Notes under the pieces: generated by a model
What the model saw: the letters and a program-made list of their open reading frames with translations, nothing else
Told to the model about the DNA's origin: nothing
Database searches by the model: none
In this document: positions 1-47,026 of the stretch, piece by piece
How positions within the stretch are numbered: position 1 is the first letter of the stretch
Layout: each line of letters begins with the position of its first letter
Made by a program: the position numbers and the translations under genes
DNA from: a virus
Reading direction: 5' to 3' (one strand)
Virus record (IMG/VR): IMGVR_UViG_3300021957_000066
Span: 1 to 47,026 of that record
Length of the DNA: 47,026 nt

Positions 1-3000
1 GCAGCCAGAAAGTCGATGATTGAAGATTTCAGAGCATTTGAAAAAAAATATGGTTCTCCATATTCTCATAAATCTAAGTTTAGACTTGATCCAGAATACC
101 CACTTGTCCTTTCTCTTCAGAGACAGAACATGATAAAAAATAATGGTAAAACTCCTGTTTATGAATATATCGATTCAGGTTTACTAAAAGGTCGTACTAG
201 TTGGCCGACAAAAACAGATCCAGACAAAGCAAAGGACTTGCAGGACGCAAAAGTCATATCAATGGCATACAAAGGTGGTATTGATATTGACTATATGGCA
301 AAAATGCTTGACTCAGAGCCAAAGGCTATTAGAAACGAACTTTTAGAAAGTGGAATGGCTTTTGAGGATCCGGTAAGTGGATTGACTGTTGAGAGATCTG
401 AGTATCTTTCGGGGCATGTGTCTAAAAAATTAAAGGAAGCAGAGAAAGAAAACTCTGATGGTAAATACAAGAATAATATAGATTCTTTATCAGAAGTTCT
501 TCCCGAAAGGCTGAAGATTGACAGTATTCGATTCAATATAAATTCTAGCTTTATTCCAACAAAATTGCATACTCAATTTATGAAAAAAGAGATAGGTGGT
601 TACGGCATCGACATCACCTATAGACCGACAACAAATACGTGGAAAGTCGAAGGTAGTTTTACAGAAGATCCTCGATACTCTACAAAAGACGTGAAGATCA
701 AAAGAGTTATAGAGCATGCGGTTTCTGGAAAGACGATACTTGTTCATGATAAAATTGAGAACCCTGATGGTTCAACTTCAAGACCAGTAAATAAAGAAAA
801 GTCAATGCAAGCAGCTGCGAAAGTGGAAGCACTTAAGTCTAAGTTCATTGAGGTCGTTAAAGCCAATACTGCTGCTCGTCAACTTGTGGAAGATTCATTT
901 AACGACACATTTAACGGCCATGCTCCTCGTGAATACTCTTCAGAAGGTCCAGACATATTCCCTGGTGCAGCCACAGAGGGAATGAAACTTCGTAGCTATC
1001 AGAAGAGAGCTGTCAACCGTGCTGTTCATCAACCTGCTCTTTTAGCTCATGCTGTTGGTTCGGGAAAAACATTGGAAATGATGACAATCGCCATGGAAAA
1101 AAGGAGACTTGGTATCGCTCGTAAAAACATGATCGTTGTTCAAAACTCAACAATTGGTCAATTTGCAGCTTCCTTTAAAGGTCAGTATCCCAATGCAGCG
1201 TTGTTAGCTCCACTAGACTCCAAAGATTTTTCTGGAGATAATCGGAAGATTTTTCTTTCCCGTATAGCAACGAGCGAGTGGGACGCAATCATTATTCCAC
1301 AGAGTTTCTTCAATAGTTTGGCAGATAATCCGGATACAATCACAGCTTTTTATGATGAAAAGATAGATGCCTTGCAGGAGATCTCTGACGAGTTGGCACG
1401 TTCTGGTGAAAATCAATCTGCTAGAACCATGGCAAACAAAATAGAAAAGCTCAGAGATAAAAAGGAATCTGATCTTAATCAGGCAAATAAAGACGGAGTT
1501 CTTCACTTTGGACAACTTGGAGTTGATTCATTAATTATAGATGAAGCTCATGAGTATAAGAAGGTTGGTCTTGAAACTCAGCTTAATAATATCAAAGGAC
1601 TTGATGTTACGTCAGGAGCTTGGGCCAGTTCTGCTTATATGAAGACTCGTTTTATTCATGAAGCCAGTGGTGGAAAAAATGTTATTCTTGCTACAGGAAC
1701 ACCAATAACTAATACATTGGCTGAAGCATACACTATGATCAGGCTAACGAATGAATCTCTTCTAAAAGAATATGGCATTACGAATTTTGACCAGTTCGCC
1801 TCAGCTTTTACTGATACAAACACAGAGCCAGAGCTTTCATCTCAAAACACGATTCGTATGGTCACTCGTATGCGAGCTTTTGTTAATCAGCCACAATTGA
1901 TAAGAATGTTTCGTCAAGTGGCTGATGTACTGACGGGTGCAACTCTTTCACAGCATGGAAGTGTAAATAAGCCAAATATTATTGGCGGTGGACCGACATC
2001 TATAGTAATTCCCATAGATCCATGGACACAAGATGTCATGGACCATATCAGAAAAGTCGTCAGGAATTTTGAAAACATGTCACCTAAAGAGAAAAGGGAC
2101 AACTCCCACATTCCTTTAGTAATGAGTAATCTTGCTGCCAAGGCTTCACTTGATCCTAGAAGTGTAGCGGGAGATCCTAGTTTACCTTCCCAGTTTGATG
2201 AAGGTCCAGACGTTGAGGACGGAAAACTCAATCGAGCTGTCAAGGATATGCTAGAAATTTATGAGCAGAGCAGTGATGATAAAGGTACACAGATGATGTT
2301 CTCGGACATGTACTATAATCGTCATAATGATTTCAATGTTTTTCATGAAGTAAAAAAGAAGTTGATTGAAGGTGGAGTACCAGAAAGTGAAATTTCTATT
2401 GTTACCGAAGTAAAAAAAGCTCAACTTGAGTCCGTGTTCACCAAAGTAAATAATGGTAGTATTCGCTTCCTTCTTGGTACAACTCGTAAAATGGGCGTTG
2501 GTGTCAATGCTCAAGAAAGAATGAAAGCATTGCACCATTTAGATGCGCCTTGGATGCCTATGGAGCTAGAACAGCGAAATGGTAGAATTCTTCGAGATGG
2601 GAATATTTTTGGTCTTAGTCAAGGTGGCGGTGTTTATATTCGCCAATATGGAGTAGAGAAGACTCTCGATGCTATGCGCTTCCAGAGACTAGCAATGAAG
2701 CAGCGTTTTATTGATGATGTCCTAGAAGGTAAGGTAAATGACGTTGCTGTGGAGAATGACGACAGTAGTAGCTTTGTTTTATCGGCAGAGCAAATGGCAG
2801 CAGCTTTTTCTGGTAATCCGGCAGTAATGGAAGTCTTCAAGCTTCAACACGATATTGAAAGGATCGAGATTGAGCGAAAGTCATACAACTCTCAGTTATC
2901 TGAAACCAGAGAAAGTAATGATAGAGTAAAATCTGACATTACCCTCATGGAAAAAAAGCTTTCAAAAATGAGAGATCAAGAAGCAGGTATAGATAAAGAG

Positions 3001-6000
3001 AGATTATTGCTTGAGGATGAGAAAGTAGAGTTATCTATCAATGGCAATAACTTAAACAATAACAATAAAAAAGTTAAAGCTGCAACAAAAGCTATAGATG
3101 CCAGGCTAAAAGAAATTATAGCCAGAACCTACGATAATGCACAATACGCCAATACAAGTTGGATAAAGCATGAGCTTCCTGCAAAGGGCTTCAAGCTTAA
3201 TGGCATGGAAGTATTATTAACTGGTCATGCTCGACTATCTCCTGACGGAAAGCCTACAGGAGAAACCTCTGTAAATTACAAGATTGACTCAGATTTCAAT
3301 ATTTCTGGAAATGTTACCACTGGTGCAGGATTCCTGACAAGCTTGAAGTCGCAGCTAGAAGTTAAGCAAGAATTATTAAAGGCTGAAGGAAGCATTGCTA
3401 GATCTAAGAAAAAACTTTCTGCCGGAGAGGATTTCTTAAAATCAGAATTCTCAAAAGAAGCTGAGTTGGCTGAAAAGTATGAAAGACTTGACGAGTTATC
3501 TGAAGATCTTGAGGCTACTGCTGAAGATCAACTTGATGAGAGCGATGCTGTCATAGAAGAACCAACGACCACAAAAAAAGATGATGTGCCTAATCTTAAG
3601 CATTCTGGTAAAAGAAGCTTAAAAAAAGTATTTAGTCGAGTTGAGTCTGCCAATGATACATTCAATCAAGATCAGGTTTTATTTAGATCTGAAGGCTCTT
3701 ACTCTTCTCTTAGTGGTCGTGATAAAGCCAAAGCTCGGCAAATCGTTCAAAAGATGACTGGTACAGCTAATGTCGAATTTGCCAAAAAACTTTTCAACTC
3801 TGAAGGAAAAGAGGTTTTCGGTAAATATTCAAATGAGTTGATTCAAATATCTGAAGGAAAAGGAGACTTTGACAATACAGCTCGACATGAAGCCATGCAC
3901 CAAGTTTATGATAAACTCCTTACTTCTGCTGAAAAGAAAGTTTTTGATGAAGCAACAAAGCGTCTTGAACTAACTCATGAAGAAGCGATCGAGAAAGTAA
4001 ACGAATTTGCCAATACTCAAAAAGGAATCACTGGAATGCTACGAGCAATGGCAAAGAGAATGATTCGCAGACTAAAAAAGATTTTTGGAGCAGACAATCT
4101 AATTGACAAGATGAATGACATTTATGATCGTACTTTGTCTGGAGAATTAGCGAGCAGAGGTGAGACTGGAGCTTCAAACTATGGATGGGACAGTAATAGA
4201 TCATCTTTATACCGGGACAAGGTTCTTGGAGATACTACCAATAGGCAAGGAATTTCCGGTAAGACTAGATCCAAAAGAAAATTTTCTGACTTCATGGAAA
4301 ACCTTTACAAATATGTTCCTTTGGATAAGCTTCAAAACTGGGACTCCTCAAACAAGGATATTAGTTGGTTCAAATCTCACTTTATGACTCCATTCTGGCA
4401 AGCAAAGAAAGGCGGTAAAATAAAACAAGCTGTCGATGTTGCCACACAAAAAGATGAAGCCAGAATGCATATGATGATTGAATTAATGGAGGGAACTAGC
4501 AGTTACTCTTCTTTAAACGACATCGAGAGAGATCGTGTAGGAAAACTAATACTTGAAGGCGGAGCTCAAGAGAAGGAGTTCTCAGCGGGTGATCCTGAGT
4601 ATGATGCTTTAAGTGCATCTGAAAGATCGGGCTACTTGGCGATTCGTGAGGTTTACAATAAAGTTCGTGATAAGAAAGTTGCGGAGATGGAGGCTGATCT
4701 TGATATTATGAAAGGAGCTTTGAAGGTTGCTCAGGATAATCAAAAGGCTAAAACAGAACGAGAAGGCGAGTTGACTGAAGACTTCTTAGATGATTCTCTG
4801 ATTCCTGATTCGGCTATTGATGGTCCATCTGATATTGAAGCTAAGTTTGAAATAATAAAGCAGGATATAAAGGATCTTGAAGGAGCTATAAAAGGTCTAA
4901 AAGAGGAGAAAGGATATTTTTCTCGCATAAGAGATAATGGCAGACACTTACTCTACCACAAAGGCGTGAATGCAAAAACTGGAGATCCGCAGCTTTATCG
5001 AGTGGCTTTTGAAGATAGCGCTCGTGGTAGAAAAGAAATGGAAGCTCATTGGCAGAGAGAGTTGGCTGACGGTGCAGTTAGTTATTTCAGTACGCCACAA
5101 GGACAATTCAAGAAAGCCATGGTAAGTACTCAGGGAATGTCCGAAGTTATCGGGGCACAGATCCGTGAAAAATTTGACAAAAATTGGCGTGGTGCGGATA
5201 TTTCTGGACTTTATGGTGTGGATGCCGAGCTTGCTACAAGGTGGCAGGAAACGACTAGCAACATGACTCCTGATCCATCAAACATATCAAGTATTGAAGT
5301 CACCAGAGAACTTGTTGAAGATTTTTATGCTGATGGTCTTAATGAAGCCAAGACAGTCGGACTCATGCAAGAGTACTTTGGAGTCAATAGTGCTTCTGAA
5401 TTAGGTTTAGATAAGGAAGTTTTGCAGAAAATATTCTTCACTCGTGGACATCGTAAACATGAAATAGCCAGAGTCAAGAATCAAGAGGGAGAGCGAATTT
5501 ACGTATCAGGTTATAGTGAAGATATTGGTGAAGTCACAGCACAATATGCTCAGAGCTTCGTCAATTCCTCTGTGAAAGCTGAAGCAGCTCAGAGATACTA
5601 CAAAGTTGTCTCAACTCTGGATCCGCAAAATAAACCAAACGAATATTCAACGGTATTGGATTTTGTTCGAGAAGAGCTACGTCAAAAAGGAAAAGCAGAC
5701 GAAGTTTCTGGAAGAGTAGCTAATGCCATATTTGGCTTTTACATGGCAGGAAGAGTGAGTTCTGCTGCTGTCAACTTAACTCAGAACTATATGATCGGCA
5801 TACCGACTCTTATGGAGTACTTGACAAAAGCAGGAAAAAAAGTTAACCCTGGCACTTATCTAAAAATGCTTGCAAGTACAGCCAAGGCACAGAAAGATTC
5901 AGCTTTATTCCGAGTCGGTAAGAGAGCTACTTTATCTAATGATGAGTTTGTTTTTCTTCGTCCTATTCTCAATGAGGCCATGGAAGCTGCTAAAGTCAAA

Positions 6001-7266
6001 GAAGCTGCCGATGAACTGAAGACTTCTGCTAGAACAAAGAATCGTGCTGAGAAAGGTTGGGACAAGATCAAAGAGTATGCAATAAAGCCTTTTGAAGAGT
6101 CAGAATTAAATAACAGAATTGCAGCTGCTCTTTTGTTTTATCGAGAGACTAAGAAAGCAGGAGTTGATGAAAAATCTATTTTAGCTGACTACAAGGATTT
6201 TGTTAAATCAGCTCACTTTGAGTATAAAGGTTGGAATAGAATGAGAATCATGAAGGATAAGCCTATAGCCAAGGCTGTTCTAGCTCCGATGTTTCACCTT
6301 GCGACATATGGCACAGAGTATACTCAGGCAATCGCAACAAGAATGTGGCCCGCGATTGTGGCAGCTGCTCGTGGTGATGTAAGGCTAGCTGCCGGAATGA
6401 TACCTTTCTTAGCTCCTGTATTTGCCTCAGCCTTACTTTTACGTGGTATGGCGGGCGAAGATGAGCTTGAAGAAGTTTATTTACGGGTAATGGGCCGAAG
6501 TATGAAGAAAGATATTGAAGGTACTTTCGGTAAATTTGCCAGTGATACATTCCAGAGAGGTGTGGTTGGTGCAATGGGACTTGATCTCTCAGGATCTCTA
6601 GCAGCTCAAATGCCTCCACAGATCGCAGCTCCACTGATGCTCGTTGGTCTTAAGGACTTTTCTGACACTCCACTATCTGGACTGTCCAAGAATCTCCTAA
6701 ACATTGGCTTTGGAGATAAGGAAGGAGTTTTTAATCGTGTGGTTGATGCAATGCCTCTAGCTATTAAATCGGCAGTCCAAGGATCTAAAGAGTTTACAGA
6801 GGGATATACAACTTATTCTGGTAAACCTATACATGTCGGTGGTGTTCAGCAAAAACTATCTGGCATTGGACTGGCAATGAAATTCCTTGGATTTAATCCT
6901 TCTGAAAGAGCTTCATTTAAAAATGATCGATGGACTGGTAGAAAGTTCAAAGAAAAGTGGACTTCCAAGAAACAAGATGTTGTTGATAGGCTGATCGTGG
7001 CTTTCAAAGAGGGAGATGCCAGTACGGTGAAAAACTTATCATCCACAATTGAAAACATGAATGATGAGATCATTAACCTCAATGAATTGTACCAAGATGA
7101 GAATTACAAAATTTCTCCTATAAAAAATTCTTACATCAAAGGTAGATCAAAGCCAGAGGGCGGAGAATCAGCGGTAACTACTGATTTGATAGTCGATCCT
7201 CCCACAGATAAGAAGAAATCAAAAAGTAGAAGATCGAGAAGAAGCAGGAGAGAACGATCAAGATAA
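1..7266 (+). CDS. Large polyvalent phage protein (DarB-like helicase with HExxH and LPD38-like regions), 5' end outside window
   Basis: The frame is open at base 1. The first ATG is at 16 and gives 2416 residues. The N-terminus (FRAFEKKYGSPYS... then DPEYPLVL) resembles the segment that follows the N6-adenine methylase domain in DarB-like antirestriction proteins, so the true start and a methylase probably lie upstream (inference). Numbering from the ATG, an SF2/SNF2 helicase spans about 315-940: motif I AVGSGKT at 346-352, DEAH at 509-512, LATGTP at 558-563, QRNGRILRDG from 853. A coiled coil covers about 945-1060. A zinc-protease-like HEAMH lies at 1291-1295. From about 1900 an alpha-helical, partly hydrophobic region looks like LPD38, and a very basic Arg/Ser tail ends the protein. 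Known relatives are virion proteins delivered with the DNA to block restriction or process incoming DNA. Helicase call is firm; protease and LPD38 calls rest on short motifs and composition. Confidence 0.85.
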   Translation, partial: AARKSMIEDFRAFEKKYGSPYSHKSKFRLDPEYPLVLSLQRQNMIKNNGKTPVYEYIDSGLLKGRTSWPTKTDPDKAKDLQDAKVISMAYKGGIDIDYMAKMLDSEPKAIRNELLESGMAFEDPVSGLTVERSEYLSGHVSKKLKEAEKENSDGKYKNNIDSLSEVLPERLKIDSIRFNINSSFIPTKLHTQFMKKEIGGYGIDITYRPTTNTWKVEGSFTEDPRYSTKDVKIKRVIEHAVSGKTILVHDKIENPDGSTSRPVNKEKSMQAAAKVEALKSKFIEVVKANTAARQLVEDSFNDTFNGHAPREYSSEGPDIFPGAATEGMKLRSYQKRAVNRAVHQPALLAHAVGSGKTLEMMTIAMEKRRLGIARKNMIVVQNSTIGQFAASFKGQYPNAALLAPLDSKDFSGDNRKIFLSRIATSEWDAIIIPQSFFNSLADNPDTITAFYDEKIDALQEISDELARSGENQSARTMANKIEKLRDKKESDLNQANKDGVLHFGQLGVDSLIIDEAHEYKKVGLETQLNNIKGLDVTSGAWASSAYMKTRFIHEASGGKNVILATGTPITNTLAEAYTMIRLTNESLLKEYGITNFDQFASAFTDTNTEPELSSQNTIRMVTRMRAFVNQPQLIRMFRQVADVLTGATLSQHGSVNKPNIIGGGPTSIVIPIDPWTQDVMDHIRKVVRNFENMSPKEKRDNSHIPLVMSNLAAKASLDPRSVAGDPSLPSQFDEGPDVEDGKLNRAVKDMLEIYEQSSDDKGTQMMFSDMYYNRHNDFNVFHEVKKKLIEGGVPESEISIVTEVKKAQLESVFTKVNNGSIRFLLGTTRKMGVGVNAQERMKALHHLDAPWMPMELEQRNGRILRDGNIFGLSQGGGVYIRQYGVEKTLDAMRFQRLAMKQRFIDDVLEGKVNDVAVENDDSSSFVLSAEQMAAAFSGNPAVMEVFKLQHDIERIEIERKSYNSQLSETRESNDRVKSDITLMEKKLSKMRDQEAGIDKERLLLEDEKVELSINGNNLNNNNKKVKAATKAIDARLKEIIARTYDNAQYANTSWIKHELPAKGFKLNGMEVLLTGHARLSPDGKPTGETSVNYKIDSDFNISGNVTTGAGFLTSLKSQLEVKQELLKAEGSIARSKKKLSAGEDFLKSEFSKEAELAEKYERLDELSEDLEATAEDQLDESDAVIEEPTTTKKDDVPNLKHSGKRSLKKVFSRVESANDTFNQDQVLFRSEGSYSSLSGRDKAKARQIVQKMTGTANVEFAKKLFNSEGKEVFGKYSNELIQISEGKGDFDNTARHEAMHQVYDKLLTSAEKKVFDEATKRLELTHEEAIEKVNEFANTQKGITGMLRAMAKRMIRRLKKIFGADNLIDKMNDIYDRTLSGELASRGETGASNYGWDSNRSSLYRDKVLGDTTNRQGISGKTRSKRKFSDFMENLYKYVPLDKLQNWDSSNKDISWFKSHFMTPFWQAKKGGKIKQAVDVATQKDEARMHMMIELMEGTSSYSSLNDIERDRVGKLILEGGAQEKEFSAGDPEYDALSASERSGYLAIREVYNKVRDKKVAEMEADLDIMKGALKVAQDNQKAKTEREGELTEDFLDDSLIPDSAIDGPSDIEAKFEIIKQDIKDLEGAIKGLKEEKGYFSRIRDNGRHLLYHKGVNAKTGDPQLYRVAFEDSARGRKEMEAHWQRELADGAVSYFSTPQGQFKKAMVSTQGMSEVIGAQIREKFDKNWRGADISGLYGVDAELATRWQETTSNMTPDPSNISSIEVTRELVEDFYADGLNEAKTVGLMQEYFGVNSASELGLDKEVLQKIFFTRGHRKHEIARVKNQEGERIYVSGYSEDIGEVTAQYAQSFVNSSVKAEAAQRYYKVVSTLDPQNKPNEYSTVLDFVREELRQKGKADEVSGRVANAIFGFYMAGRVSSAAVNLTQNYMIGIPTLMEYLTKAGKKVNPGTYLKMLASTAKAQKDSALFRVGKRATLSNDEFVFLRPILNEAMEAAKVKEAADELKTSARTKNRAEKGWDKIKEYAIKPFEESELNNRIAAALLFYRETKKAGVDEKSILADYKDFVKSAHFEYKGWNRMRIMKDKPIAKAVLAPMFHLATYGTEYTQAIATRMWPAIVAAARGDVRLAAGMIPFLAPVFASALLLRGMAGEDELEEVYLRVMGRSMKKDIEGTFGKFASDTFQRGVVGAMGLDLSGSLAAQMPPQIAAPLMLVGLKDFSDTPLSGLSKNLLNIGFGDKEGVFNRVVDAMPLAIKSAVQGSKEFTEGYTTYSGKPIHVGGVQQKLSGIGLAMKFLGFNPSERASFKNDRWTGRKFKEKWTSKKQDVVDRLIVAFKEGDASTVKNLSSTIENMNDEIINLNELYQDENYKISPIKNSYIKGRSKPEGGESAVTTDLIVDPPTDKKKSKSRRSRRSRRERSR

Positions 7267-7342: not shown

Positions 7343-7843
7343 ATGCTTGAAGTTTTCGAAGATAATACTTTTGAGGAAAAAGGTGTTGCAGTTAGGCCAT
7401 GTATAAAGCCTATCTATGACAGCGACCAAGAGTTCTATCTCAGCGAAGACTACTACCTGTGCTTCTCTCTTGACAATGACTTCTATTGTGAAATAGAAAT
7501 ATTTATTCCTGCATTCTTTATTTTTAATGGTGCATCTATCCCTCGTTTCTTCTGGAGGATGATCGGCTTTCCGTTGTCTCCACGATTCATAATTGCTTCT
7601 TTGATCCATGATGCCTTGTTTGGCAAGATCCATGGGCGGGTGAAGGTATGGGTGGATGGTCACGAATTAAAGAATCATCAAACGAATGGTTTTTTCAACC
7701 AGTCAACCACAGACTCGATCTTCAAAGGAATTTTAATCGCAGAGCAAAACTGTGGATGGAAGGTCCGTATGATGCACAGAGCTGTCCGGCTTGGTGGAAG
7801 ATTCGCTTTCCGTAAATCAGAAAACAAATTTTACCAAGGATAG
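7343..7843 (+). CDS. DUF1353 family phage protein
   Basis: This 166-residue protein contains the pattern NGASIPRFFW followed by ASLIHDALF. That is the recognisable core of DUF1353, a family of small phage proteins often encoded among late or lysis-proximal genes; its function is unknown. A clear ribosome site (gagagga) precedes the ATG. It is the first gene after the polyvalent protein and is followed 3 bases later by a membrane protein, so it is likely in the same late operon. The conserved His-Asp in IHDA suggests a metal site, but that is inference. Confidence 0.7.
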   Translation: MLEVFEDNTFEEKGVAVRPCIKPIYDSDQEFYLSEDYYLCFSLDNDFYCEIEIFIPAFFIFNGASIPRFFWRMIGFPLSPRFIIASLIHDALFGKIHGRVKVWVDGHELKNHQTNGFFNQSTTDSIFKGILIAEQNCGWKVRMMHRAVRLGGRFAFRKSENKFYQG

Positions 7844-14449: not shown

Positions 14450-16071
14450 TTGTCGTTAGGGTTAATGTCTTTTGTTTCTGGAACAAAAGTTTTTGCGTCG
14501 ATTTTTGGCGGCACATTCCAGTGATTCTTTTTTATGCGAGTAAACATCGAAGATGCTTGGTCCTGAGTCCAGTTTTGTACATTTTTGAAGCCATAGCGAT
14601 TGAGGAATCTTATTTGCTTTGCAGTAGTCATTCCGGCCGCAGTTCTGGCTTTAAGTTTCTCTATGAGCTTTGAAGCATACCCTGCACAACTCACGTCATC
14701 AGGGTTTATTCCATGCCTCTCTAGTAAGGCAAGTTGAGCTTTACTTGCTATGCCCATCTCATAAACTTCTGTTGGTATGTAGTTTTTGAGGTCATCACCA
14801 TCGATACTCAATCCAAAGGCGACTGGATCCACAAGTTTCTTTTTGCGTCCTTCTTTTTCTTTGAGCTGTTTAGCGAGTGCGTTTTCTCTTTCTTGGACGG
14901 CATCTTTTTTAGCTTCGTCTTCGACATCTTCAAGATCGAGAGCAGTAGGGTTTCCACTCTTGGAATTTTCTTCCATAATTTTTACCATGGCATCGGCTTC
15001 AAACTTATCGTGGGAGATCAAATGCGCAGGTCTACAGAGTTCATGCTTTTCTGTATGCCAAAGGAAATCGAGAACGAGTAAATCTTTTTTCCCAGTTTCT
15101 GGAGAGAGTCTGGTACCACGTCCAACTATCTGAGAATAGAGGGCTCGAACTTTCGTGGGACGAAGACAGACAATGCAATCTACACTTGGCTCGTCAAAAC
15201 CTTCGGTAAGCAACATCGAGTTGCAAATGGCATTATATTTGTCTGTTCCAAAGTCTGCTATAATTTCTTTACGGTCCTTGCTTTTTCCGTTGACTTCTGC
15301 ACATCTAAATCCACGATCATTTAAAAGCATCTGCATTCTTTTACTTGTGGCGATCAATGGCAGGAAAACCATAGTCTTTCTATCCATGCAGTGCGTCACC
15401 ATCTCTTCAGCGATTGACTCCAGGTAAGGAGCGAGTGCGTCATCTAGATCTCGTTCAGAAAAATCTCCGGCTTTGATCTTTAATTTCCCCAACTCTATAT
15501 TTAGTGGAAGTGTCAATGCCTTTATTGGCGAAAGGAATCCTGAGCGAATAGCTTCTGGCAAACTGTACTCAAAAGCGACTGACTGAAAAACCTTTCCTAT
15601 ATTTTTTTTATCTCCACGATCAGGTGTGGCTGTTACGCCAAGTATCTGAGCTCCGGAAAAATAATCAATGACACTCTGATAAGTCGGGCTTAAAGCATGA
15701 TGAGCCTCGTCAATAATTATGTAGTCATAATAGTCTGGCGAAAACTTTTCCTGCCTTGTTGGATTCTTCAAAGTCTGAACTGAGCCAACGGTAATACGAA
15801 ACCATGAGCCGAATGCTGTTTTCTCGGCTTTTTCTACAGCACATTTCAAGCCTGTAGCTTTCTGCATTTTGTCAGCTGCTTGAATCAGCAGTTCTTCTCT
15901 GTGAGCGAGAATTAGTATCCTGCTCCCTTCCCGAACCTTAAGCTCAGAAAGTTTGCAGAATACAATAGTCTTACCGCATCCTGTAGGAAGAACGAGCAGA
16001 GTTGAGCGAACTTTCCTCCACTCTTTTAGTATGCAATCGATTGATTGCTTCTGATACGGTCGAAGTTCCAT
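14431..16071 (-). CDS. SF2 DEAH-type DNA helicase
   Basis: I chose ATG 16071, which overlaps the upstream stop as TAATG behind GGAGG; an upstream in-frame start at 16113 would add 14 residues. The 546-residue product opens with MELRPYQKQSID (Q motif), then Walker A LPTGCGKT (28-35), LILAHR (Ia), IIIDEAHHA (DEAH 121-124), VTATPDR (III), and QIVGRGTRLS (VI). This is the layout of phage SF2 helicases related to UvsW/SSL2/RecG-like remodelers. The C-terminal third carries an EEAKKD-type charged region and an extra helical domain. It likely remodels replication forks or recombination intermediates. Confidence 0.9.
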   Translation of the reverse strand: MELRPYQKQSIDCILKEWRKVRSTLLVLPTGCGKTIVFCKLSELKVREGSRILILAHREELLIQAADKMQKATGLKCAVEKAEKTAFGSWFRITVGSVQTLKNPTRQEKFSPDYYDYIIIDEAHHALSPTYQSVIDYFSGAQILGVTATPDRGDKKNIGKVFQSVAFEYSLPEAIRSGFLSPIKALTLPLNIELGKLKIKAGDFSERDLDDALAPYLESIAEEMVTHCMDRKTMVFLPLIATSKRMQMLLNDRGFRCAEVNGKSKDRKEIIADFGTDKYNAICNSMLLTEGFDEPSVDCIVCLRPTKVRALYSQIVGRGTRLSPETGKKDLLVLDFLWHTEKHELCRPAHLISHDKFEADAMVKIMEENSKSGNPTALDLEDVEDEAKKDAVQERENALAKQLKEKEGRKKKLVDPVAFGLSIDGDDLKNYIPTEVYEMGIASKAQLALLERHGINPDDVSCAGYASKLIEKLKARTAAGMTTAKQIRFLNRYGFKNVQNWTQDQASSMFTRIKKNHWNVPPKIDAKTFVPETKDINPNDKWITSF

Positions 16072-16499
16072 TAGTCCTCCTTGGGTGGACTTGGAATTTC
16101 TTGCTTCATCCAATGACTAACTTCTAAAGCATCACACCAATAATCATCGTAATCTCTATCGTCCCAACATTTGAAATGTGTGTTGAATGGAAGATTTTCT
16201 ACGCATCCATTACGAATAACCCAACAGTCAACATGAGCAGCTTCGCCTTCTGGAAGGCTATCTGAGGTCTTCGTCCATTGAGGTGATTTCAGTTCCTCTA
16301 CAGCATCAATTTCTTTCTGGAGGTCATCAATTTCTTTAGCGGAGTCAACTGAATGATCTTGATACTTCTGAATTTCGCCTTCAAGAGAAATTACCTCATT
16401 GCTCAAGTCTTGAATTTCTTGAATGAAGTCATCAGGGTGGACGAATCTACCTTTCTGCATATCAAATAGCTCTCCGTCTGGCTCTTCTCTATATCTCAT
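16071..16499 (-). CDS. Hypothetical coiled-coil protein with Trp/Cys-rich C-terminus (DUF551-like)
   Basis: Start 16499 is preferred: its ATG overlaps the stop of the 39-residue zinc peptide (ATGA) and AAGGTGA lies just upstream; an in-frame ATG at 16541 is the alternative. The 142-residue product has a helical N-terminal half with heptads (about 30-80). The C-terminal half reads SPQWTKTSDSLPEGE ... VSHWMKQEIPSPP, which is the pattern of DUF551, a short domain found in phage proteins. Function unknown. It couples to the helicase gene by TAATG. Confidence 0.65.
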   Translation of the reverse strand: MRYREEPDGELFDMQKGRFVHPDDFIQEIQDLSNEVISLEGEIQKYQDHSVDSAKEIDDLQKEIDAVEELKSPQWTKTSDSLPEGEAAHVDCWVIRNGCVENLPFNTHFKCWDDRDYDDYWCDALEVSHWMKQEIPSPPKED

Positions 16500-16615
16500 G
16501 GTTTCACCTTCTTGATTCTTTTTGCTTGTTCGGTTCCGCAATGATTGCAGATCTTTGTGAATTTTGTGGACCCTGCTCTGAAGCTAATTCCAGAGCACTT
16601 TATGCATGTCTTCAT
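16496..16615 (-). CDS. 39-residue zinc-ribbon peptide
   Basis: This short gene starts immediately after the exonuclease stop (TAA then ATG) and ends overlapping the next start as ATGA. It encodes two CxxC knuckles, CIKC and CNHC, separated by 15 residues, in a basic peptide (ends KRIKKVKP). That is a minimal zinc ribbon able to bind nucleic acid or protein. Gapless packing on both sides and the four Cys make it a real gene despite its size. Confidence 0.65.
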   Translation of the reverse strand: MKTCIKCSGISFRAGSTKFTKICNHCGTEQAKRIKKVKP

Positions 16616-17464
16616 TTAGAGGAAGTCCAGTTTCTCGTTGATACCACGAAGCCATTCAACTTGATTCTTGGCATCTTCAAGAGCGTTGTGATTATTTTTT
16701 CCACAAGCTTCACGAGACTCTGGCCAGAATTCAGAAAGAGTTCTGCAATCCATTATCTGCCAATATCCCCATGGCACATAATCGTAAAACTGGGTAAATA
16801 TTGACTGAAGCTTTGTGATGTCGAAGGTTACGCCATTTGCCCAAATGTAGATCATGCATTCAACATCTTCGGGTATTTGTTTTTCAATGAAGCAATGCAG
16901 GTCAGCAAGTGGACCTTTAACGTCATCTCCGCCAAAAGGAGCCGGAGTCTTTTGCATACCCCACCACCGAAGTGTTTCTATATCAATTGAGCGACCTGCA
17001 TTGATTTGCTCTTGAAGACCAAGCTCAGTATAGAATTCATCTATGTTCTCTTTGTTATCAAAACAAACTGCTCCAATTGACGCGATAACTGCGTTGTCTT
17101 TTAAGCCGAGAGTTTCAATGTCGATCATTATGTGTCTAGTCATTGATGACTTTTTGACTTCTGGCTCTAGCTCTGGCTCCGACTTGAAGTCGAGGTCTAG
17201 TTCATCGAGCTTGTCATATGCTTCTCTGATAGCCTCGATCATTTTTACCAAAATTCTTTCATTCGATACTGGGGCAAATCCTCTCAATATTTTACTGACT
17301 GCATTTGTGTGTATTGAGCCTGTCGTTGCTTTAAGGTTGATGAAATCAGTTATGTCTGCTTGAGTCTTCTTTTTGATTTTTGATTTAATTTCACCGATTT
17401 TACTGACAAGCTCAGTCATGAGTGCTCCATCAAAGAGCGTGTATTCTTTCTTATTCATTTTCAT
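16616..17464 (-). CDS. DnaQ-like 3'-5' exonuclease with N-terminal HTH-like extension
   Basis: The product has 282 residues. From about residue 108 it is a DEDD exonuclease: MIDIETLG (Asp115, Glu117), a middle WANGVTFDI with the third acidic residue, and HNALEDA (His259, Asp264). This form is close to phage exonucleases such as T4 DexA. The first ~105 residues are unusual: DITDFINLKATTGSIHTNAV then SKILRGF looks like an XRE-type helix-turn-helix, followed by an acidic linker (EPELEPEV). An in-frame Met at 108 (MTRHIMIDIE) could give a separate short exonuclease. ATG 17458 is an alternative start. It likely degrades host DNA or processes ends for recombination. Confidence 0.8.
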   Translation of the reverse strand: MKMNKKEYTLFDGALMTELVSKIGEIKSKIKKKTQADITDFINLKATTGSIHTNAVSKILRGFAPVSNERILVKMIEAIREAYDKLDELDLDFKSEPELEPEVKKSSMTRHIMIDIETLGLKDNAVIASIGAVCFDNKENIDEFYTELGLQEQINAGRSIDIETLRWWGMQKTPAPFGGDDVKGPLADLHCFIEKQIPEDVECMIYIWANGVTFDITKLQSIFTQFYDYVPWGYWQIMDCRTLSEFWPESREACGKNNHNALEDAKNQVEWLRGINEKLDFL

Positions 17465-17690
17465 TTATTACGTTCCAAATTTTTATTACATCTTCTTGGA
17501 GTGCTCCGTACTTAGCTCGTGGGCTAGTTGGCCCTTTCCGGATGTCTCGTTGAAGTGATGTAAGGAATTTTTTATTATCTGTGGTTGTTACACAGCTGCG
17601 AAGTTTCCAAGGAGCCGAAGGTAAGTCCTCCGGCTTCAAGGTTAGCGCCCAGTCCATGAGCGCATATAGTTGGTTACTGGAATCCGCCAT
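17451..17690 (-). CDS. Small hypothetical replication-unit protein
   Basis: The start is taken at ATG 17690, which overlaps the end of the SSB-like gene; an in-frame start at 17735 would lie deep in that gene. The 79-residue protein begins MADSSNQLYALMDWALTLKP. It is helical and soluble with basic patches (LQRDIRKGP) and overlaps the exonuclease start. No family recognised; position suggests a replication or recombination accessory role. Confidence 0.6.
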   Translation of the reverse strand: MADSSNQLYALMDWALTLKPEDLPSAPWKLRSCVTTTDNKKFLTSLQRDIRKGPTSPRAKYGALQEDVIKIWNVINENE

Positions 17691-18429
17691 TGCCCCAATT
17701 ACCGGCTTGTCCAGTTGGGTTTGGCACGTTGCCATTCACAAGAGTAGCTTGCTGTTGTGGAGCAGCTTGTTGTTGCGGTTGCTGAAAAGTAGGCTGCTGA
17801 ACTTGAGTCTGCTGTGGAGCAGCTTGTTGTGGAGCCGATTCAGCAGGATCTAAATAACGGTCAACCTTGTTTGACTGCTTGGTAGATCCGTCGTTTCCTC
17901 TAAACGAATCAACTTTAATTTTAACCTTTCCACCTTTGCCTCGAATGTTATTCCAGTCCATTACGAGTCTTTCGCCTTTCTTGCGATCTCCAATTCCCTT
18001 AAACAACTGGCAGAACTTCCACTCCATATTCTTCTTAAGAGCTAAAGAGTCCTTAAGAGTGTGCTTTTGGCCTTCATGCTCAACTTGAATGCTAACGATC
18101 ATTCTCTTGCGAACTTTACCGGGCATCCCCTGTGCTTTTGGTTTCTCTTGGTAGGTTGTTTGCTCAAAGTCAACCACGGCAAACGAGTAAGTTCCGGCAG
18201 GAAGTAAGACAAAATCTTGACCATCATCTTCAATGGTCCCGTTCATATCAAGATCGTCATCGTCAGCTTGAACGCCTTGAGATTGCTGCTGATAACCTTG
18301 CTGCTGCTGTGGAGCTCCGCCATACGGCTGATTTTGGTTATACTGCTGTGGTGGTGTTACCTGCTGCTGCTGAGTTTGAGTAGGAGCTTGGTACTGCTGA
18401 TTTTCGAATTGTGTGTAATCGTTATTCAT
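17674..18429 (-). CDS. DUF669 family single-strand-binding-like protein with Gln-rich tails
   Basis: This 251-residue protein has the DUF669 core at about 60-200: LLPAGTYSFAVVDFEQTTYQ, IVSIQVEHEG, LALKKNMEWKFCQLF and MDWNNIRGKGGKVKI. DUF669 proteins stand in for SSB in many phages and sit beside Sak4/RecA-type genes, as here. Both ends are low complexity: the first ~50 residues are Gln/Pro/Gly/Tyr-rich, and the last ~50 are Ala/Pro/Gln repeats ending GNWGNGGF. SSB usually ends with an acidic tip, which is missing. It is 2 bases from the Sak4-like gene. Confidence 0.8.
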   Translation of the reverse strand: MNNDYTQFENQQYQAPTQTQQQQVTPPQQYNQNQPYGGAPQQQQGYQQQSQGVQADDDDLDMNGTIEDDGQDFVLLPAGTYSFAVVDFEQTTYQEKPKAQGMPGKVRKRMIVSIQVEHEGQKHTLKDSLALKKNMEWKFCQLFKGIGDRKKGERLVMDWNNIRGKGGKVKIKVDSFRGNDGSTKQSNKVDRYLDPAESAPQQAAPQQTQVQQPTFQQPQQQAAPQQQATLVNGNVPNPTGQAGNWGNGGFQ

Positions 18430-18431
18430 TA

Positions 18432-19565
18432 TTACTGACCTCTGTGTTGTTTAATTAATTCAAATATTTCGTTCCAAGATCCCACGAGGTGTTCGAGGTA
18501 GTCTTGAGGGTATTCGCCCATTTTCATTCCTTCTGGAAAATGGCCACTTCTGACTGCCATAGCTTCAATTTCTGACTGCCATACTTCGCAAGTATCCATC
18601 AGGTCAAAAAGAGGAGTATAGAAAGTCGGTTCTCCTTTAGTTTGTGGTTGAGTTTCTACTGGGGCTTGAGTCGTTGGCCGTGATCGCTGCCGACAAGCTT
18701 CAGCTGATTCTTGCACCGGACTTTGTGAAACCTGCTGCTGTGCTGCCGGATTAACGACCGCTTGTTGCTGAGGTTGAGTTTGTTGTTGAGTTTGTTGGAC
18801 AGGCTGTTGTTGAGCTTGTGGACTGGCTTGTCCTGTAGCTCTAACGGGGATGTGTCCTGCAATGGCATCATACAGAGCTTGTGGGCTTCCTTCAAAGTCG
18901 ATCTCGTCAGGCATTCCATATCTGTTTTTTGCGTCGTAAGAAGCATGGTGCTTAGTGCAGATAACTCTTCTGCCACCTTTAGCTTTTTTCTTAGTTTCTC
19001 CAACGAGGAAGGTTTTGAAATTACAAAAGATAACGGCATCAGCCCACTCCTTTGGAAGTGGCGCCACTTTCTTCTCAAGCCTTAATTCGTATTTGTCGAA
19101 TGAACCAGACTCTTCTGGAAGATCTACTTTTCGAATGTGGCTGTGGCCAAGGATGACAACGTTGATGCCATTATCAGTCACATGAGTGAGTAAATCGAGC
19201 ATTCTGCCCATCTCTTCAGCAAGATAAACGAATCCTTTATGCCAACCGAAGTCTGCAAGTCCTGCCACATTGCCGTGTTGACAAATGTGCTGAGCACACA
19301 ATCTCTCTGCCCAGTCAATGGTATCAAGAACAAAAGTCTTGAATGAGTGATTGTTTGGATTGCTTATCCATCTGATCTGCTCCATGAGCTGTGCCCAACT
19401 AGTGGGAGCATCGAGGCGACTGACATCAAGGTGGTTCGTACTACCTTCAGTATCTAAGAAAACTGGATCCGGAAATCGTGATGCCATTTCTGACTTACCG
19501 ATTCCTTCCACGCCATAAATGACGATTCTTTGAGCCTTTATTTTTTTACCTGTGGTGATATTCAT
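18432..19565 (-). CDS. Sak4-like phage recombination ATPase (AAA_24) with Gln-rich tail
   Basis: I chose ATG 19565, which overlaps the upstream ATPase stop by one base (TAATG). The product has 377 residues. A RecA-fold core opens with IVIYGVEGIGKS (Walker A at 18-25), has FLDTEGS, the Walker B-like FVLDTIDW, and VVILGHSH, as in phage AAA_24/Sak4 proteins. These act as single-strand annealing recombinases with a partner SSB, here the adjacent DUF669 gene. Residues about 240-310 are almost pure Gln/Pro/Ala/Val repeats, matching the low-complexity style of the SSB-like partner. The C-terminus is helical. Confidence 0.82.
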   Translation of the reverse strand: MNITTGKKIKAQRIVIYGVEGIGKSEMASRFPDPVFLDTEGSTNHLDVSRLDAPTSWAQLMEQIRWISNPNNHSFKTFVLDTIDWAERLCAQHICQHGNVAGLADFGWHKGFVYLAEEMGRMLDLLTHVTDNGINVVILGHSHIRKVDLPEESGSFDKYELRLEKKVAPLPKEWADAVIFCNFKTFLVGETKKKAKGGRRVICTKHHASYDAKNRYGMPDEIDFEGSPQALYDAIAGHIPVRATGQASPQAQQQPVQQTQQQTQPQQQAVVNPAAQQQVSQSPVQESAEACRQRSRPTTQAPVETQPQTKGEPTFYTPLFDLMDTCEVWQSEIEAMAVRSGHFPEGMKMGEYPQDYLEHLVGSWNEIFELIKQHRGQ

Positions 19566-20890
19566 TATGAGAATTCCCATTTTGGTTTGGTTTTTGTTTT
19601 GGTGATTGTGCGGTTCTCTGCCACGAGCCCATCTTCAATGATGATGGTGCATTCTTCGCGATCACCGACTGTTGTGCCGATATTCTGAAGACCTTGCTCG
19701 ATGAGCCAGTCGTTGAATGTGGCAATAGTGTTTGAATCCATCTGCTCAAGCTTGTCAGTGAGGACGAATCCACACTCAGGCTTAAGCTGTCGAATAATGG
19801 CAGTGGAAACGATTAGCTGTTCAGCTCCAGACATGCAGTCCCAGTTCTGATTCTTGTACGTCAGCTTGCCGTCAGATATGCCGAGCTCCGGTAGCGGAAG
19901 TCTGGCGCCATTGAGGAGGTCCAGTCTTTCTTGGCGAACCTTTTCAATATTCTCAGTCAAAGAGTCGTATTCTTTCTTCTTCTCTTTGGCTTCCTCTGTG
20001 GCTGATTGTTTTTCGAGATTGCAGCGAATATGAGTATTAGTGCTTTCGATTTGATTTAACTGCTTTTCGACTTCTTCAGTGCCTTCATCCTGTACTTGGT
20101 CGGCACTCTTTTTAGACTCAGAATATTTGGTCCTGATTTCATCACGATCTTTTTCTAAGTCCGAGATCTCTTTTGCGAGTGAGTCTAGTTGATCTTTTTT
20201 ATGAGTGATGACTGCTGCAATATTCAAGCCTTGGTCTTCTAGGCTCTTAGTTTGTTGCCTAAGCTTCTCATTCTCAGCATTTTTTAACAGTACTGAGCTT
20301 TGATGCTTGATTAATTCACTTGCGGAAATTGGTGTAAGTGGTAGATCAGGATAGAATGGCATTTGCTCAGCATGGCCACTCTTGCTCTTCAGCTCTCTAC
20401 CAACTACAGTACGCTCGTTTGCAAGTTCAGCTTCCTTGTGGTCGATCTCTGCCAATTTGTCACCAACACCCAAGATACTTAGGAGAGTTTCAGCTTTTTT
20501 CTTATCATTGGCTGTCATGAATTTTGGCAAATCCAGAGCAAGCTCACTAATAAAGGAGTTTAGTAAAGCTTGTCCGGCTGTCTTGCCTGTAGGATCCGTA
20601 ACAGTGAGAGTTGAATTTTTTCCTTTTCTCTCGACTATTAGGCCGTTCGATAAAGTTACTTTTATCTTAGGTGGAGCCATTGAGCCTTCGCGCTGAACGT
20701 TCGATGGTTTCTTGGCATTACCGCCAAGAGCGAAAGCGATACTATCTAGGATAGAGGTCTTTCCTTCGCCATTATTTCCGCCTATAAGTGTCAGTCCATC
20801 AGGAGAGAGAGTAAAGCATACAGACTGCACACGCTTGACGTTCTCAACTTCTAAAGAATGAATTTTAACTGGATTATTTTTATTCGACAT
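19565..20890 (-). CDS. SbcC/Rad50-like AAA_23 ATPase
   Basis: The product has 441 residues. Walker A IGGNNGEGKTS lies at 36-46, then a Q-loop region, a long coiled coil (about 195-330, heavy in Glu/Lys/Gln), and a C-terminal ATPase half with an ABC signature SGAEQL near residue 354 and a Walker B-like FVLTDKLEQMD. The Glu after the Walker B Asp is replaced by Lys (TDKLE), so ATP hydrolysis may be slow or use another residue. Short SbcC-like proteins in phage recombination units probably tether ends or cooperate with a nuclease; the DnaQ gene is downstream. This is the first gene of the leftward replication unit. Confidence 0.8.
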   Translation of the reverse strand: MSNKNNPVKIHSLEVENVKRVQSVCFTLSPDGLTLIGGNNGEGKTSILDSIAFALGGNAKKPSNVQREGSMAPPKIKVTLSNGLIVERKGKNSTLTVTDPTGKTAGQALLNSFISELALDLPKFMTANDKKKAETLLSILGVGDKLAEIDHKEAELANERTVVGRELKSKSGHAEQMPFYPDLPLTPISASELIKHQSSVLLKNAENEKLRQQTKSLEDQGLNIAAVITHKKDQLDSLAKEISDLEKDRDEIRTKYSESKKSADQVQDEGTEEVEKQLNQIESTNTHIRCNLEKQSATEEAKEKKKEYDSLTENIEKVRQERLDLLNGARLPLPELGISDGKLTYKNQNWDCMSGAEQLIVSTAIIRQLKPECGFVLTDKLEQMDSNTIATFNDWLIEQGLQNIGTTVGDREECTIIIEDGLVAENRTITKTKTKPKWEFS

Positions 20891-21520: not shown

Positions 21521-22006
21521 ATGTTGACTAGGGTTACAGAAGATTTTAAAGCCGCCATACAGCAATGGCTAACTGAAGAGCAACTGACTCTTCGCGAAGC
21601 AGGGAAATTAATAGGGACAAGTCATGGAAGTATTGGGAATGTTTTGACGGGCATGACTAAAACAATAAGGCCTAAGTTGATGATGGCTCTTGAGCCTTAT
21701 ATTAATAAATACAGAGATCCAGAAGAGCTTCAAAAATCAATGAAAAGAAAAACATCTACATTTACTGACCAGACTGCTGCGCACTGTCGAATGGATGTGA
21801 ATATCATAAGCAACATTCAAAAATATAAAGATGACAATAAATTATCTTATGAAGACATGAGGAATAAATTCAACATACCTATTATAAAGCTCGCTGAGTG
21901 GATGGAGGCCGACTACTCGGAAGAAGATTTTTTTACACTAAGCGCAAATGACTTTCCTATATTCGCTGCATTTGTTTCTCAAGTGCTGAGTGAACAGTTT
22001 GTGTGA
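21521..22006 (+). CDS. HTH regulator of the integrase operon
   Basis: This 161-residue protein has an N-terminal helix-turn-helix (about 10-45: QQWLTEEQLTLREAGKLIGT then HGSIGNVLTG) and a second HTH-like segment at about 100-130 (LSYEDMRNKFNIPIIKLAEW). It has no peptidase or oligomerisation domain that I can recognise, so it is not a LexA-type repressor. It is transcribed from the strong promoter at 21428 and overlaps the integrase start by GTGA. Plausible roles are lysogeny repressor or excision/integration regulator; the switch layout favours repressor. Confidence 0.7.
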   Translation: MLTRVTEDFKAAIQQWLTEEQLTLREAGKLIGTSHGSIGNVLTGMTKTIRPKLMMALEPYINKYRDPEELQKSMKRKTSTFTDQTAAHCRMDVNIISNIQKYKDDNKLSYEDMRNKFNIPIIKLAEWMEADYSEEDFFTLSANDFPIFAAFVSQVLSEQFV

Positions 22007-25289: not shown

Positions 25290-25321
25290 AGTTGAATCCT
25301 TAATCTTCTTATTTAGTTTAA

Positions 25322-25352
25322 GGATCTCTTTCTTCTTAAGGAAAGAAGATCC
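25322..25352 (-). ncRNA. Hairpin in the Rha leader RNA
   Basis: In the - strand transcript GGATC pairs with GATCC (5 bp), then TCTTTC with GAAAGA (6 bp, one bulged base), with a short loop. It lies about 33 bases upstream of the Rha start within a leader of about 230 bases. It could regulate translation or termination; no known riboswitch was recognised. Confidence 0.35.
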
Positions 25353-25523
25353 ACTCAGGAGGTTAAGAACTCTGTAAGAAGTCAGAGCCACACGTCTTGC
25401 GATAGTGTGCCACCTGAGCAGACCAGAATGAAGTTCTAGTATGCTGCGTTTGTGGAAGGATACCAATTTGACGATATGGCCTTCGCTTCTTACTTTGAGG
25501 TTCTTAAGCCTCTTGCATTACCA

Positions 25524-44914: not shown

Positions 44915-45271
44915 ATGCCAGTAATGCTTCTTGATGAAATAGCGAAAGAGGAAAACACTTTCGCCATGACTGTTGATTTTATAGATGAGCATGGTAATGC
45001 ATTCACGCCTAACTCAGGAAGCATTGACTGGGGACTCTATGATAAAGATGGTGAGGTTCTGGCATCAGCTCCTTCTGCGCCAACTTCAGCAGAGTCTATT
45101 GATATTGTTATATCGGGATCAAGTATGACAATTCAAAAACATGAACGAAAGCTTGCTTCTGCGCCAAGATTCTTGAGAGTTTCTGCTTTATATGATTCTG
45201 CTCTTGGATCTGGCTTGAAGGTGGTGAGTGAATATAAATTTTTTCTGGAAAACCTTAAAGGGATTTCATAA
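44915..45271 (+). CDS. Small virion-type beta protein
   Basis: The 118-residue product begins MPVMLLDEIAKEENTFAMTV and looks like a single Ig-like or jelly-roll domain (VDFIDEHGNAFTPNSGSIDW; SEYKFFLENL). AAGGAGTAG precedes the ATG. The stop overlaps the next start by one base (TAATG). This kind of gene often sits before the tail-tube gene; function unknown. Confidence 0.58.
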   Translation: MPVMLLDEIAKEENTFAMTVDFIDEHGNAFTPNSGSIDWGLYDKDGEVLASAPSAPTSAESIDIVISGSSMTIQKHERKLASAPRFLRVSALYDSALGSGLKVVSEYKFFLENLKGIS

Positions 45272-47026
45272 TGCCAGTAGACTTAACTAGATTTGGGGGG
45301 ATTATCCCAAAGCTTAGCCCAAATGAACTTCCGCCTATGGGAGCACAGGTTGCTCAGAATTGTGACCTAGTTAGTCAGTCGCTAAGACCTATTAATGTCG
45401 ATAATCCATTCTTTGATCTAAAAGGTGATGATGGTCGGCTGAATAGTGGTATTGATGAGAGCGATGTTTTTACGACTCCCACGCCTTCGACTCCTTACAT
45501 TAAGGAGATTGAGTACTTTGCCAGAAACATTGATCAGTGGGTGGGAGTTAGACGTTCGATTTATGTTGCACAGGTAGCTACGGATTTGGATGGTAATACG
45601 TTTGATGACATCAGACATTTCCATGATAATAATTATTCAACTCCCACTAAAGTAGTTTATACTGAGACTGGCATGAGGTTGACATATTCACTGCCTTCTA
45701 TAACTCTTAGGCTTGAAGAAGGCTTTACTTATCAAGTTATTTCTCCAGTTTTTCAATTCAAGCTTTTGAATTCGCCATATAACGGAAGTCCAGACCAGAC
45801 ATTTTGTCTACCAACAGAGCTTGGAAGAGGTTACAATTCTATCATTCCTCGTGGGCGTATTCCATTAGTTTACAGAAAGCCGAAGCCAGACCAATTGATT
45901 ATTCGAGTTAATGATAGTGATGACTTCACGCAAGGTGTCATTTATGGATACTTTGAGATTGAAGATGTTGATGCTTTCCCAATTGATAAAACAATTACGA
46001 ATCCAGACGGTAATGGTGATTTAGTTGAAGTTCTCATTCCCTTTGAAGTTACTTTCACAATTAATCTCAATTACTCAGTTCCCAAAAGACGCACCTATTA
46101 CTACATGCAAACGTACCTCAAGAATAGGACTGAATTGATCGAGAGTGTTCCTTCTGAAATTTCAGAAGCCGTTGAGCTATTGCCTGGACAAATTGCCACT
46201 ATGCAGACTTATAGGACTAGTGCAGGCTACAGATTTAATAATATTTATAGGTCAGGCTCCGGTAATAGTTTTAGACTAGTGAGCCAAGCCGATGCAGACG
46301 AGTTTAGAGACACTGAATTCTTGCCACTCCGAGAAGAGTTACCTCCTTTTGGTAATCCTCCTGCGACCAGTGATGCCGAGCTTCAAGTTTTTCTTGAGGG
46401 AAGCATTGTTCATCCGGCTCAATTTGGGATTGCATTTAAAGATAAGGTTCTTTATTTTTCCGACTATTATAAATACCATATGTGGCCAGATGAGTATACA
46501 ATTACTTTTCAAGACGATATTCAAGCCATTATGTTATCGGGTGGAAGTGTCGTAGTATTTACTTTAGAGGACGTGTATATAGTGAGTGGGGGTAATCCTG
46601 CTACCATGACTAAATATCTTATATCAAGTGTCAATCCACTCCTTGACCCAAAATCTCTATCACGAATTGGCAATACTATTTTCTATACCTCTCATGATGG
46701 TCTTTTTGCTACTTCGGGATCCAGTATCCAAAGCTTAACGAAAGAATTTTATACTCGTTCAGAATGGCTTGACTTGTCTCCAGAAACTTTTTCGGCAAAA
46801 GTGGCAGATAATAGTATTTTTCTTGAAGGCAATGTAGTTAATCTTCGATTTGATCTTGATGAAACTATTCAAGCAATCACGACTTTCACAGCTACGGACT
46901 CAACAAGCGGTTTTACTTGGAAGTCAAAGAGGTATCACTTTACTCAGCCAGAAATATTTGATTACTTCAAAGTAGATGCTGATGGAGATATAACAGTAAA
47001 AGCTTATGTCGATGGTGTCTTGGCCG
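45271..47026 (+). CDS. Tail tubular/stabilisation-like virion protein, 3' end outside window
   Basis: The gene starts at ATG 45271 (overlapping the upstream stop as TAATG) and is open to the window end, giving at least 585 residues. The N-terminus GGIIPKLSPNELPPMGAQVA then QNCDLVSQSLRPI is the conserved opening of podovirus tail-tube-B / P22 gp10-like proteins (pattern G..P...P..LP..AQVA.NC.L..G.L.PI). The rest is beta-rich (propeller-like). It would cap the connector and form the tail tube. The C-terminus is missing. Confidence 0.72.
   Translation, partial: MPVDLTRFGGIIPKLSPNELPPMGAQVAQNCDLVSQSLRPINVDNPFFDLKGDDGRLNSGIDESDVFTTPTPSTPYIKEIEYFARNIDQWVGVRRSIYVAQVATDLDGNTFDDIRHFHDNNYSTPTKVVYTETGMRLTYSLPSITLRLEEGFTYQVISPVFQFKLLNSPYNGSPDQTFCLPTELGRGYNSIIPRGRIPLVYRKPKPDQLIIRVNDSDDFTQGVIYGYFEIEDVDAFPIDKTITNPDGNGDLVEVLIPFEVTFTINLNYSVPKRRTYYYMQTYLKNRTELIESVPSEISEAVELLPGQIATMQTYRTSAGYRFNNIYRSGSGNSFRLVSQADADEFRDTEFLPLREELPPFGNPPATSDAELQVFLEGSIVHPAQFGIAFKDKVLYFSDYYKYHMWPDEYTITFQDDIQAIMLSGGSVVVFTLEDVYIVSGGNPATMTKYLISSVNPLLDPKSLSRIGNTIFYTSHDGLFATSGSSIQSLTKEFYTRSEWLDLSPETFSAKVADNSIFLEGNVVNLRFDLDETIQAITTFTATDSTSGFTWKSKRYHFTQPEIFDYFKVDADGDITVKAYVDGVLA

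Follow-up and report, generated by a model that had tools for sequence, protein, structure and literature searches.

The locus raises the question of what is encoded by a giant viral reading frame that joins a helicase to a single metallopeptidase-like HExxH motif, and of what that motif may do. The window analysed here, the whole of IMG/VR record IMGVR_UViG_3300021957_000066 (47,026 bases), is linear and of viral origin, with no repeats at its ends. Frame +1 is already open at base 1 and reaches its stop at 7264–7266 after 2421 codons; no stop precedes it in the window and the contig edge cuts it, so that the N-terminus of the protein is missing. The protein is supported as a DarB-like phage polyvalent protein, as it had been classed earlier from the sequence. 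Iyer et al. 2017 (PMC5512222) described polyvalent proteins built from such parts, reported the zincin-like peptidase to be the commonest polyvalent-protein domain and listed cases in which it is fused to SNF2 ATPase and to adenine methylase; class and combination of parts are therefore known, and the protein is a further member. New here are the assignment of its C-terminal domain to 'tail-700', a rare subfamily of zincins together with its predicted fold, the distance between HExxH and tail-700, and an exchange of cargo.

Layout of a truncated DarB-like protein

The features of the gene and its neighbourhood are given in Table 1. Most of what the earlier note had read from the sequence holds, namely one frame of more than 2400 residues with a DarB-like helicase, a long coiled coil (coiled-coil-like by composition) and a basic Arg/Ser tail, which is Lys/Arg/Ser-rich and reads KKKSKSRRSRRSRRERSR. 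Three Pfam models match the helicase above their cut-offs (ResIII 3e-8, SNF2 1e-6, Helicase_C 3e-5), and the protein matches the 'DarB-like antirestriction' family PHROG 10089. A SWI2/SNF2-related SF2 helicase, by which DarB-like proteins are recognised (Iyer et al. 2017), is present with intact motifs: Walker A GSGKT at residue 353 (nt 1057–1071), DEAH at 514 (nt 1540–1551), TGTP at 565 (nt 1693–1704) and motif VI QRNGRILR at 858 (nt 2572–2595). The DEAH box of many relatives has the sequence DEAHEYKH (e.g. at residue 3543 of L006), placing a false HExxH inside the helicase, and the DEAH box must therefore be left out of HExxH counts.

A full-length relative of 4001 residues from another viral contig (L097) aligns to window residues 1–1172, 1238–1470 and 1814–2353. 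The first 310 residues of the window protein align from L097 residue 1440, directly after the L097 methylase. The linker between zincin and C-terminal domain (residues 1390–1830) has no significant Pfam or PHROG match, and its part up to residue 1470 can be aligned to L097.

Table 1 Features of the polyvalent gene and its neighbourhood in the window
Feature	Position (nt)	Strand	Evidence
Polyvalent protein gene, 5' end cut by contig edge	1..7266	+	Open frame (2421 codons + stop); PHROG 10089 DarB-like, E 6e-257
Residues 1–310, between methylase and helicase	1..930	+	PHROG 10089 positions 2024–2337, 3e-50
Residues 328–867, SNF2/SF2-type helicase core	982..2601	+	Pfam PF04851, PF00176, PF00271 above cut-offs; motifs
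Residues 940–1230, charged, coiled-coil-like, short non-helical insert	2818..3690	+	Composition; weak PHROG 10089 match
Residues 1239–1380, zincin-like metallopeptidase domain	3715..4140	+	Homologues L255, L097, L257; AlphaFold core pLDDT 80–89; PDB matches mostly zincins
HEAMH, residues 1296–1300, predicted catalytic and zinc-ligand motif	3886..3900	+	HEAMH in 4/4 homologues; HExxH in 10/10 of wider set
Glu1335, candidate third zinc ligand, helix after HEAMH	4003..4005	+	9/10 rows; model helix 93–106
Residues 1390–1830, linker from zincin to C-terminal domain	4168..5490	+	No recognised domain
Residues 1831–2356, 'tail-700' (PLxRFG) C-terminal domain, hydrophobic near 2129–2147	5491..7068	+	NCBIfam NF032893
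Residues 2403–2421, Lys/Arg/Ser-rich tail	7207..7263	+	Sequence; basic tails also end L097 and L255
Next gene downstream, tail-assembly-chaperone-like	7343..7843	+	PHROG 1158, 8e-16; 69% identical to L255 gene after polyvalent gene
Internal-virion-protein-like gene, right edge	45271..47025	+	PHROG 511, 2e-45; 72–76% identity and gene order in L255

The missing N-terminus and the methylase

The alignment to PHROG 10089 enters at profile position 2024 of 4647, so that the missing part of the protein may amount to roughly one to two thousand residues; L097 has 1439 residues before the start of its alignment to the window protein. The earlier note had placed a methylase upstream of the frame; this is supported through relatives, and no methylase lies within the contig itself, the domain being expected beyond the left edge. 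Of the helicase-bearing relatives that extend far enough upstream, 148/148 have an adenine-methylase motif (motif IV, N-[VPIFW]-P-F) 560–760 residues before Walker A, whereas shuffling gave an expectation of 19 under a somewhat looser pattern; many of these relatives are mutually similar, so that the count does not represent 148 independent events. As the window starts about 350 residues before its Walker A, the motif is expected about 270 residues further upstream. Motif IV is also present in L097, and an Eco57I methylase scores above the Pfam cut-off in three relatives (Y7, VvAW1 and Itty13).

A sister contig, IMGVR_UViG_3300021959_000113 (G001, L092), is 99.9% identical over window positions 10457–47026 and continues to the right of the window for 4.08 kb, which contain the remainder of the right-edge gene, two more genes and a portion of another. 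It stops before the start of the polyvalent gene and contains no methylase, and its last open frame, used as a query, retrieved nothing but itself. An LPD36 N-terminal to the methylase, a further mark of DarB-like proteins (Iyer et al. 2017), would likewise lie outside both contigs. Searches by whole protein, HExxH segment and portal returned no close relatives besides this contig. Circular completion of the record, joining the right-edge gene to the left-edge frame, was rejected, because the record lacks end repeats and its right-edge gene, which encodes a virion protein, reaches its stop within the sister contig. A hydrophobic N-terminal region is common to the polyvalent proteins of L097 and two further contigs, L255 and L257 (41% and 30% identity to L097; weak for L257), and the start of the window protein may resemble it, to judge from these relatives.

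A rare zincin-like domain around HEAMH

The window protein has one HExxH, the HEAMH at residue 1296 that had been noted as protease-like, with lack of conservation in homologues named beforehand as the refuting outcome. It is conserved in all four of the few direct homologues (the window protein included). The domain recurs in three other viral contigs at 24–55% identity, with HEAMH at the equivalent place in L097, while a further scan yielded L255 (55% identity in the HExxH segment) and L257. When IMG/VR was scanned directly for the DNA pattern, no contigs beyond these three came up, indicating that the zincin subfamily of the window is rare. No Pfam or PHROG library model covers the region, tblastn with the HExxH segment in phages and plasmids gave no significant match, and a sequence search of the PDB returned nothing relevant. 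The curated MPTase-PolyVal model (PF18818) does not match the segment, and the domain is claimed here as a member of the zincin-like superfamily, not of that Pfam family. The HExxH within the helicase arrangement, which the earlier note had singled out for attention, is real and conserved, but the arrangement itself is not new (Iyer et al. 2017).

The alignment was widened to ten sequences with six more distant zincin domains, gathered by sequence similarity and not by motif. HExxH, including its catalytic Glu, is invariant in 10/10 rows, and the Glu1335 column is conserved in 9/10, L257 lacking this residue as aligned. Two of the distant members have weak matches, one SprT-like and the other to lethal factor; the sequence link between close and distant groups is itself weak (profile comparison probability 62%). 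Across the wider family, HExxH follows the helicase in 34 of 150 helicase-bearing relatives, compared with 3.1 in shuffles (maximum 8).

An AlphaFold model of the domain from the ten sequences gave a zincin core with pLDDT of about 80–89, in which H6–20, E24–28, E41–44, E47–51 and H57–73 form the N-terminal helix, three-stranded sheet and HExxH helix characteristic of zincins. Its PDB neighbours by VIA-align 2 were mostly zincin metallopeptidases (Z ≤6.4), the neighbours including TTHA0227, acel_2062, a protease of DNA-protein crosslink repair, selecase, IrrE, ulilysin, anthrax lethal factor and the antirestriction protein ArdC, and its BFVD matches include large-polyvalent-protein and SprT-like entries. 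With these Z values, and with Foldseek giving no PDB match below E 0.001, the assignment draws on a pattern of many weak matches, and the predicted zincin fold is well supported, not proven. A model from four sequences (mean pLDDT 41.6) was discarded.

Other zincin types occur among the related proteins. The 2227-residue polyvalent protein of L257 (5789–12469) carries the window zincin type (HEAMH) together with a second HExxH (HEIGH), and has no match to the window helicase or tail-700. Two DarB-like relatives, L102 and L125, have HEAGH and HEVAH domains that group with the HEMAH type of VvAW1, a distinct zincin family whose VvAW1 member weakly matches MPTase-PolyVal.

The C-terminal domain and its distance from HExxH

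The hydrophobic C-terminal region had been read as LPD38-like; the region is hydrophobic, but is assigned here to tail-700 instead. Pfam found no LPD38 (PF18857) in the window or in the C-termini of ten relatives, a profile comparison of the domain with LPD38 gave a probability of 0.5%, and NF032893 matched in its place; LPD38 was thus rejected. The NF032893 score on the window protein (E 3e-28, 98.6 bits) lies just under the curated cut-off of 100 bits, which L097 (109.7 bits) and L255 (114.8 bits) both exceed. Within the loci that were fetched, a profile built from the window domain picked up about 90 ORFs related to it.

HExxH lies upstream of tail-700 in 25 of the 39 non-redundant carriers of the domain, against about 1.2 in shuffles (a count that omits the window protein owing to a spurious helicase overlap). 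In 13/39, the window protein included, it lies 440–560 residues before tail-700, compared with 1.5 by random placement (maximum 6), and these 13 proteins fall by loose sequence clustering into at least four zincin groups. For the annotation of such proteins, a simple rule follows from assigning tail-700 and from the repeated placement of HExxH ahead of it.

Gene neighbourhood and cargo exchange

L255 (IMG/VR contig 3300038701_003149) is a related phage in which the gene order around the polyvalent gene is that of the window and its sister contig. Identities are 76%, 73%, 30% and 37% for the four genes before the polyvalent gene and 69% and 45% for the two after it, and three genes of short or medium length separate the polyvalent gene from the upstream L255 homologue of the internal-virion-protein-like gene. 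The polyvalent gene accordingly has the late-gene, virion-protein context of DarB-like proteins. An integrase (22003–23475, PHROG 1, 2e-27) and an anti-repressor Ant-like gene (24465–25466, PHROG 63, 7e-21) in the window mark the phage as probably temperate. Beyond its phage genes, L255 has an RHS-core-like frame and a prepilin-like frame (MRKNFTLLELILVVFILGL) at 15049–20231. These two frames are possibly host sequence at the border of a prophage, and could reveal what the host is.

The L255 polyvalent protein retains the zincin domain (48–55% identity), tail-700 (22%) and the basic tail. It has no methylase, and a search with the window protein against the whole 56.5-kb L255 record found no helicase; LPD5, LPD1 and a second HExxH (HEWFH) are present instead. 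Cargo has thus been swapped at one gene position between the two phages while zincin and tail-700 were kept. The pair shows which parts stay and which swap, and hence which fragments to look for. It is possible, if on balance doubtful, that zincin and tail-700 form a delivery chassis (spacing often about 450–540 residues) for exchangeable injected cargo released by the zincin; if so, the window phage and L255 would represent one lineage with methylase-helicase cargo in one and LPD5/LPD1 in the other.

Proposed mechanism and alternatives

Taken together, we consider it likely that this is a packaged and injected DarB-like protein that acts in antirestriction through methylase and translocase and is cleaved by its own zincin. 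The polyvalent protein would be the product of a late virion gene in a phage that is probably temperate, and most likely it is packaged and injected along with the DNA; the DarB-like homologue JC1 gp69 was found in virions by mass spectrometry (51 unique peptides, PMC9144972), and the Dar proteins of phage P1 are co-ejected with DNA (PMC12810830). The methylase, beyond the contig edge, and the SNF2-type translocase would modify or shield incoming DNA against restriction. The zincin-like domain would most likely cut its own polypeptide, in the capsid or after entry, and so separate the methylase-helicase cargo from the C-terminal tail-700 part. Methylase and translocase as antirestriction and zincin as processing enzyme were proposed by Iyer et al. 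(PMC5512222), and the earlier note's idea of an injected protein acting at once on DNA and host defence is plausible by analogy with these systems. Self-cutting by polyvalent-protein zincins has been proposed since 2017, and we found no direct test of it in the literature. The retention of the zincin with tail-700 while the cargo changes favours a role in cis.

Cleavage cannot be assumed, since the N4 virion polymerase has a zincin domain and is nevertheless packaged unprocessed (PMC5512222). Together with ArdC and TraC1, zincin proteins that are transferred full length (PMC5512222), it lends some weight to a rather unlikely alternative, also allowed by Iyer et al. (PMC5512222), in which the zincin is an injected effector cutting a host target, e.g. 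a defence protein; the retention of the zincin beside tail-700 through the change of cargo, and its recurring distance to that domain, fit action in cis better. Still less probable is a non-catalytic structural or packaging element whose motif is kept for zinc binding and stability: the region of the N4 polymerase required for encapsidation does include the zincin domain (PMC5512222), but a structural site would not need the catalytic Glu that is invariant in the ten-sequence alignment. That HEAMH arose by chance within a helical stretch is extremely improbable, given its conservation in three homologues, its correct placement in the predicted core and the strong enrichment of HExxH in the family over shuffles, even though library models fail to recognise the segment.

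Comparison with known systems

The preferred reading, a packaged DarB-like protein with a self-cleaving zincin, can be set against several other proteins. BcepMigl gp69 and JC1 gp69 (Bcep22-like phages) are, like the window protein, giant late-gene proteins with an SNF2-type helicase, and have the methylase that is expected for the window protein. BcepMigl gp69 likewise has an HExxH domain downstream of the helicase, but of another zincin sequence family, and differs in its N-terminal transglycosylase and C-terminal LPD38, with about 28% identity over the shared part. The DarB-like protein of Pseudoalteromonas phage vB_PalP_Y7 (WPJ30526.1) joins a methylase and a helicase to the C-terminal domain type seen in the window protein (26% identity, split over two pieces), but carries an ADP-ribosyltransferase and a ddrB-like ParB domain and no HExxH. 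L255 matches the window in gene order, virion neighbours (69–76% identity for the best), zincin, tail-700 and basic tail, and differs in having neither methylase nor helicase. DarB of phage P1, of about 2000 residues (PMC12810830), is by description a methylase-helicase pair and the archetype of the antirestriction dyad (PMC5512222). Phage P1 DdrB and the N4 virion RNA polymerase are, as proposed here, virion proteins with a zincin-like domain (PMC5512222), but with other cargo, and of the two DdrB is processed before packaging whereas the N4 polymerase is not.
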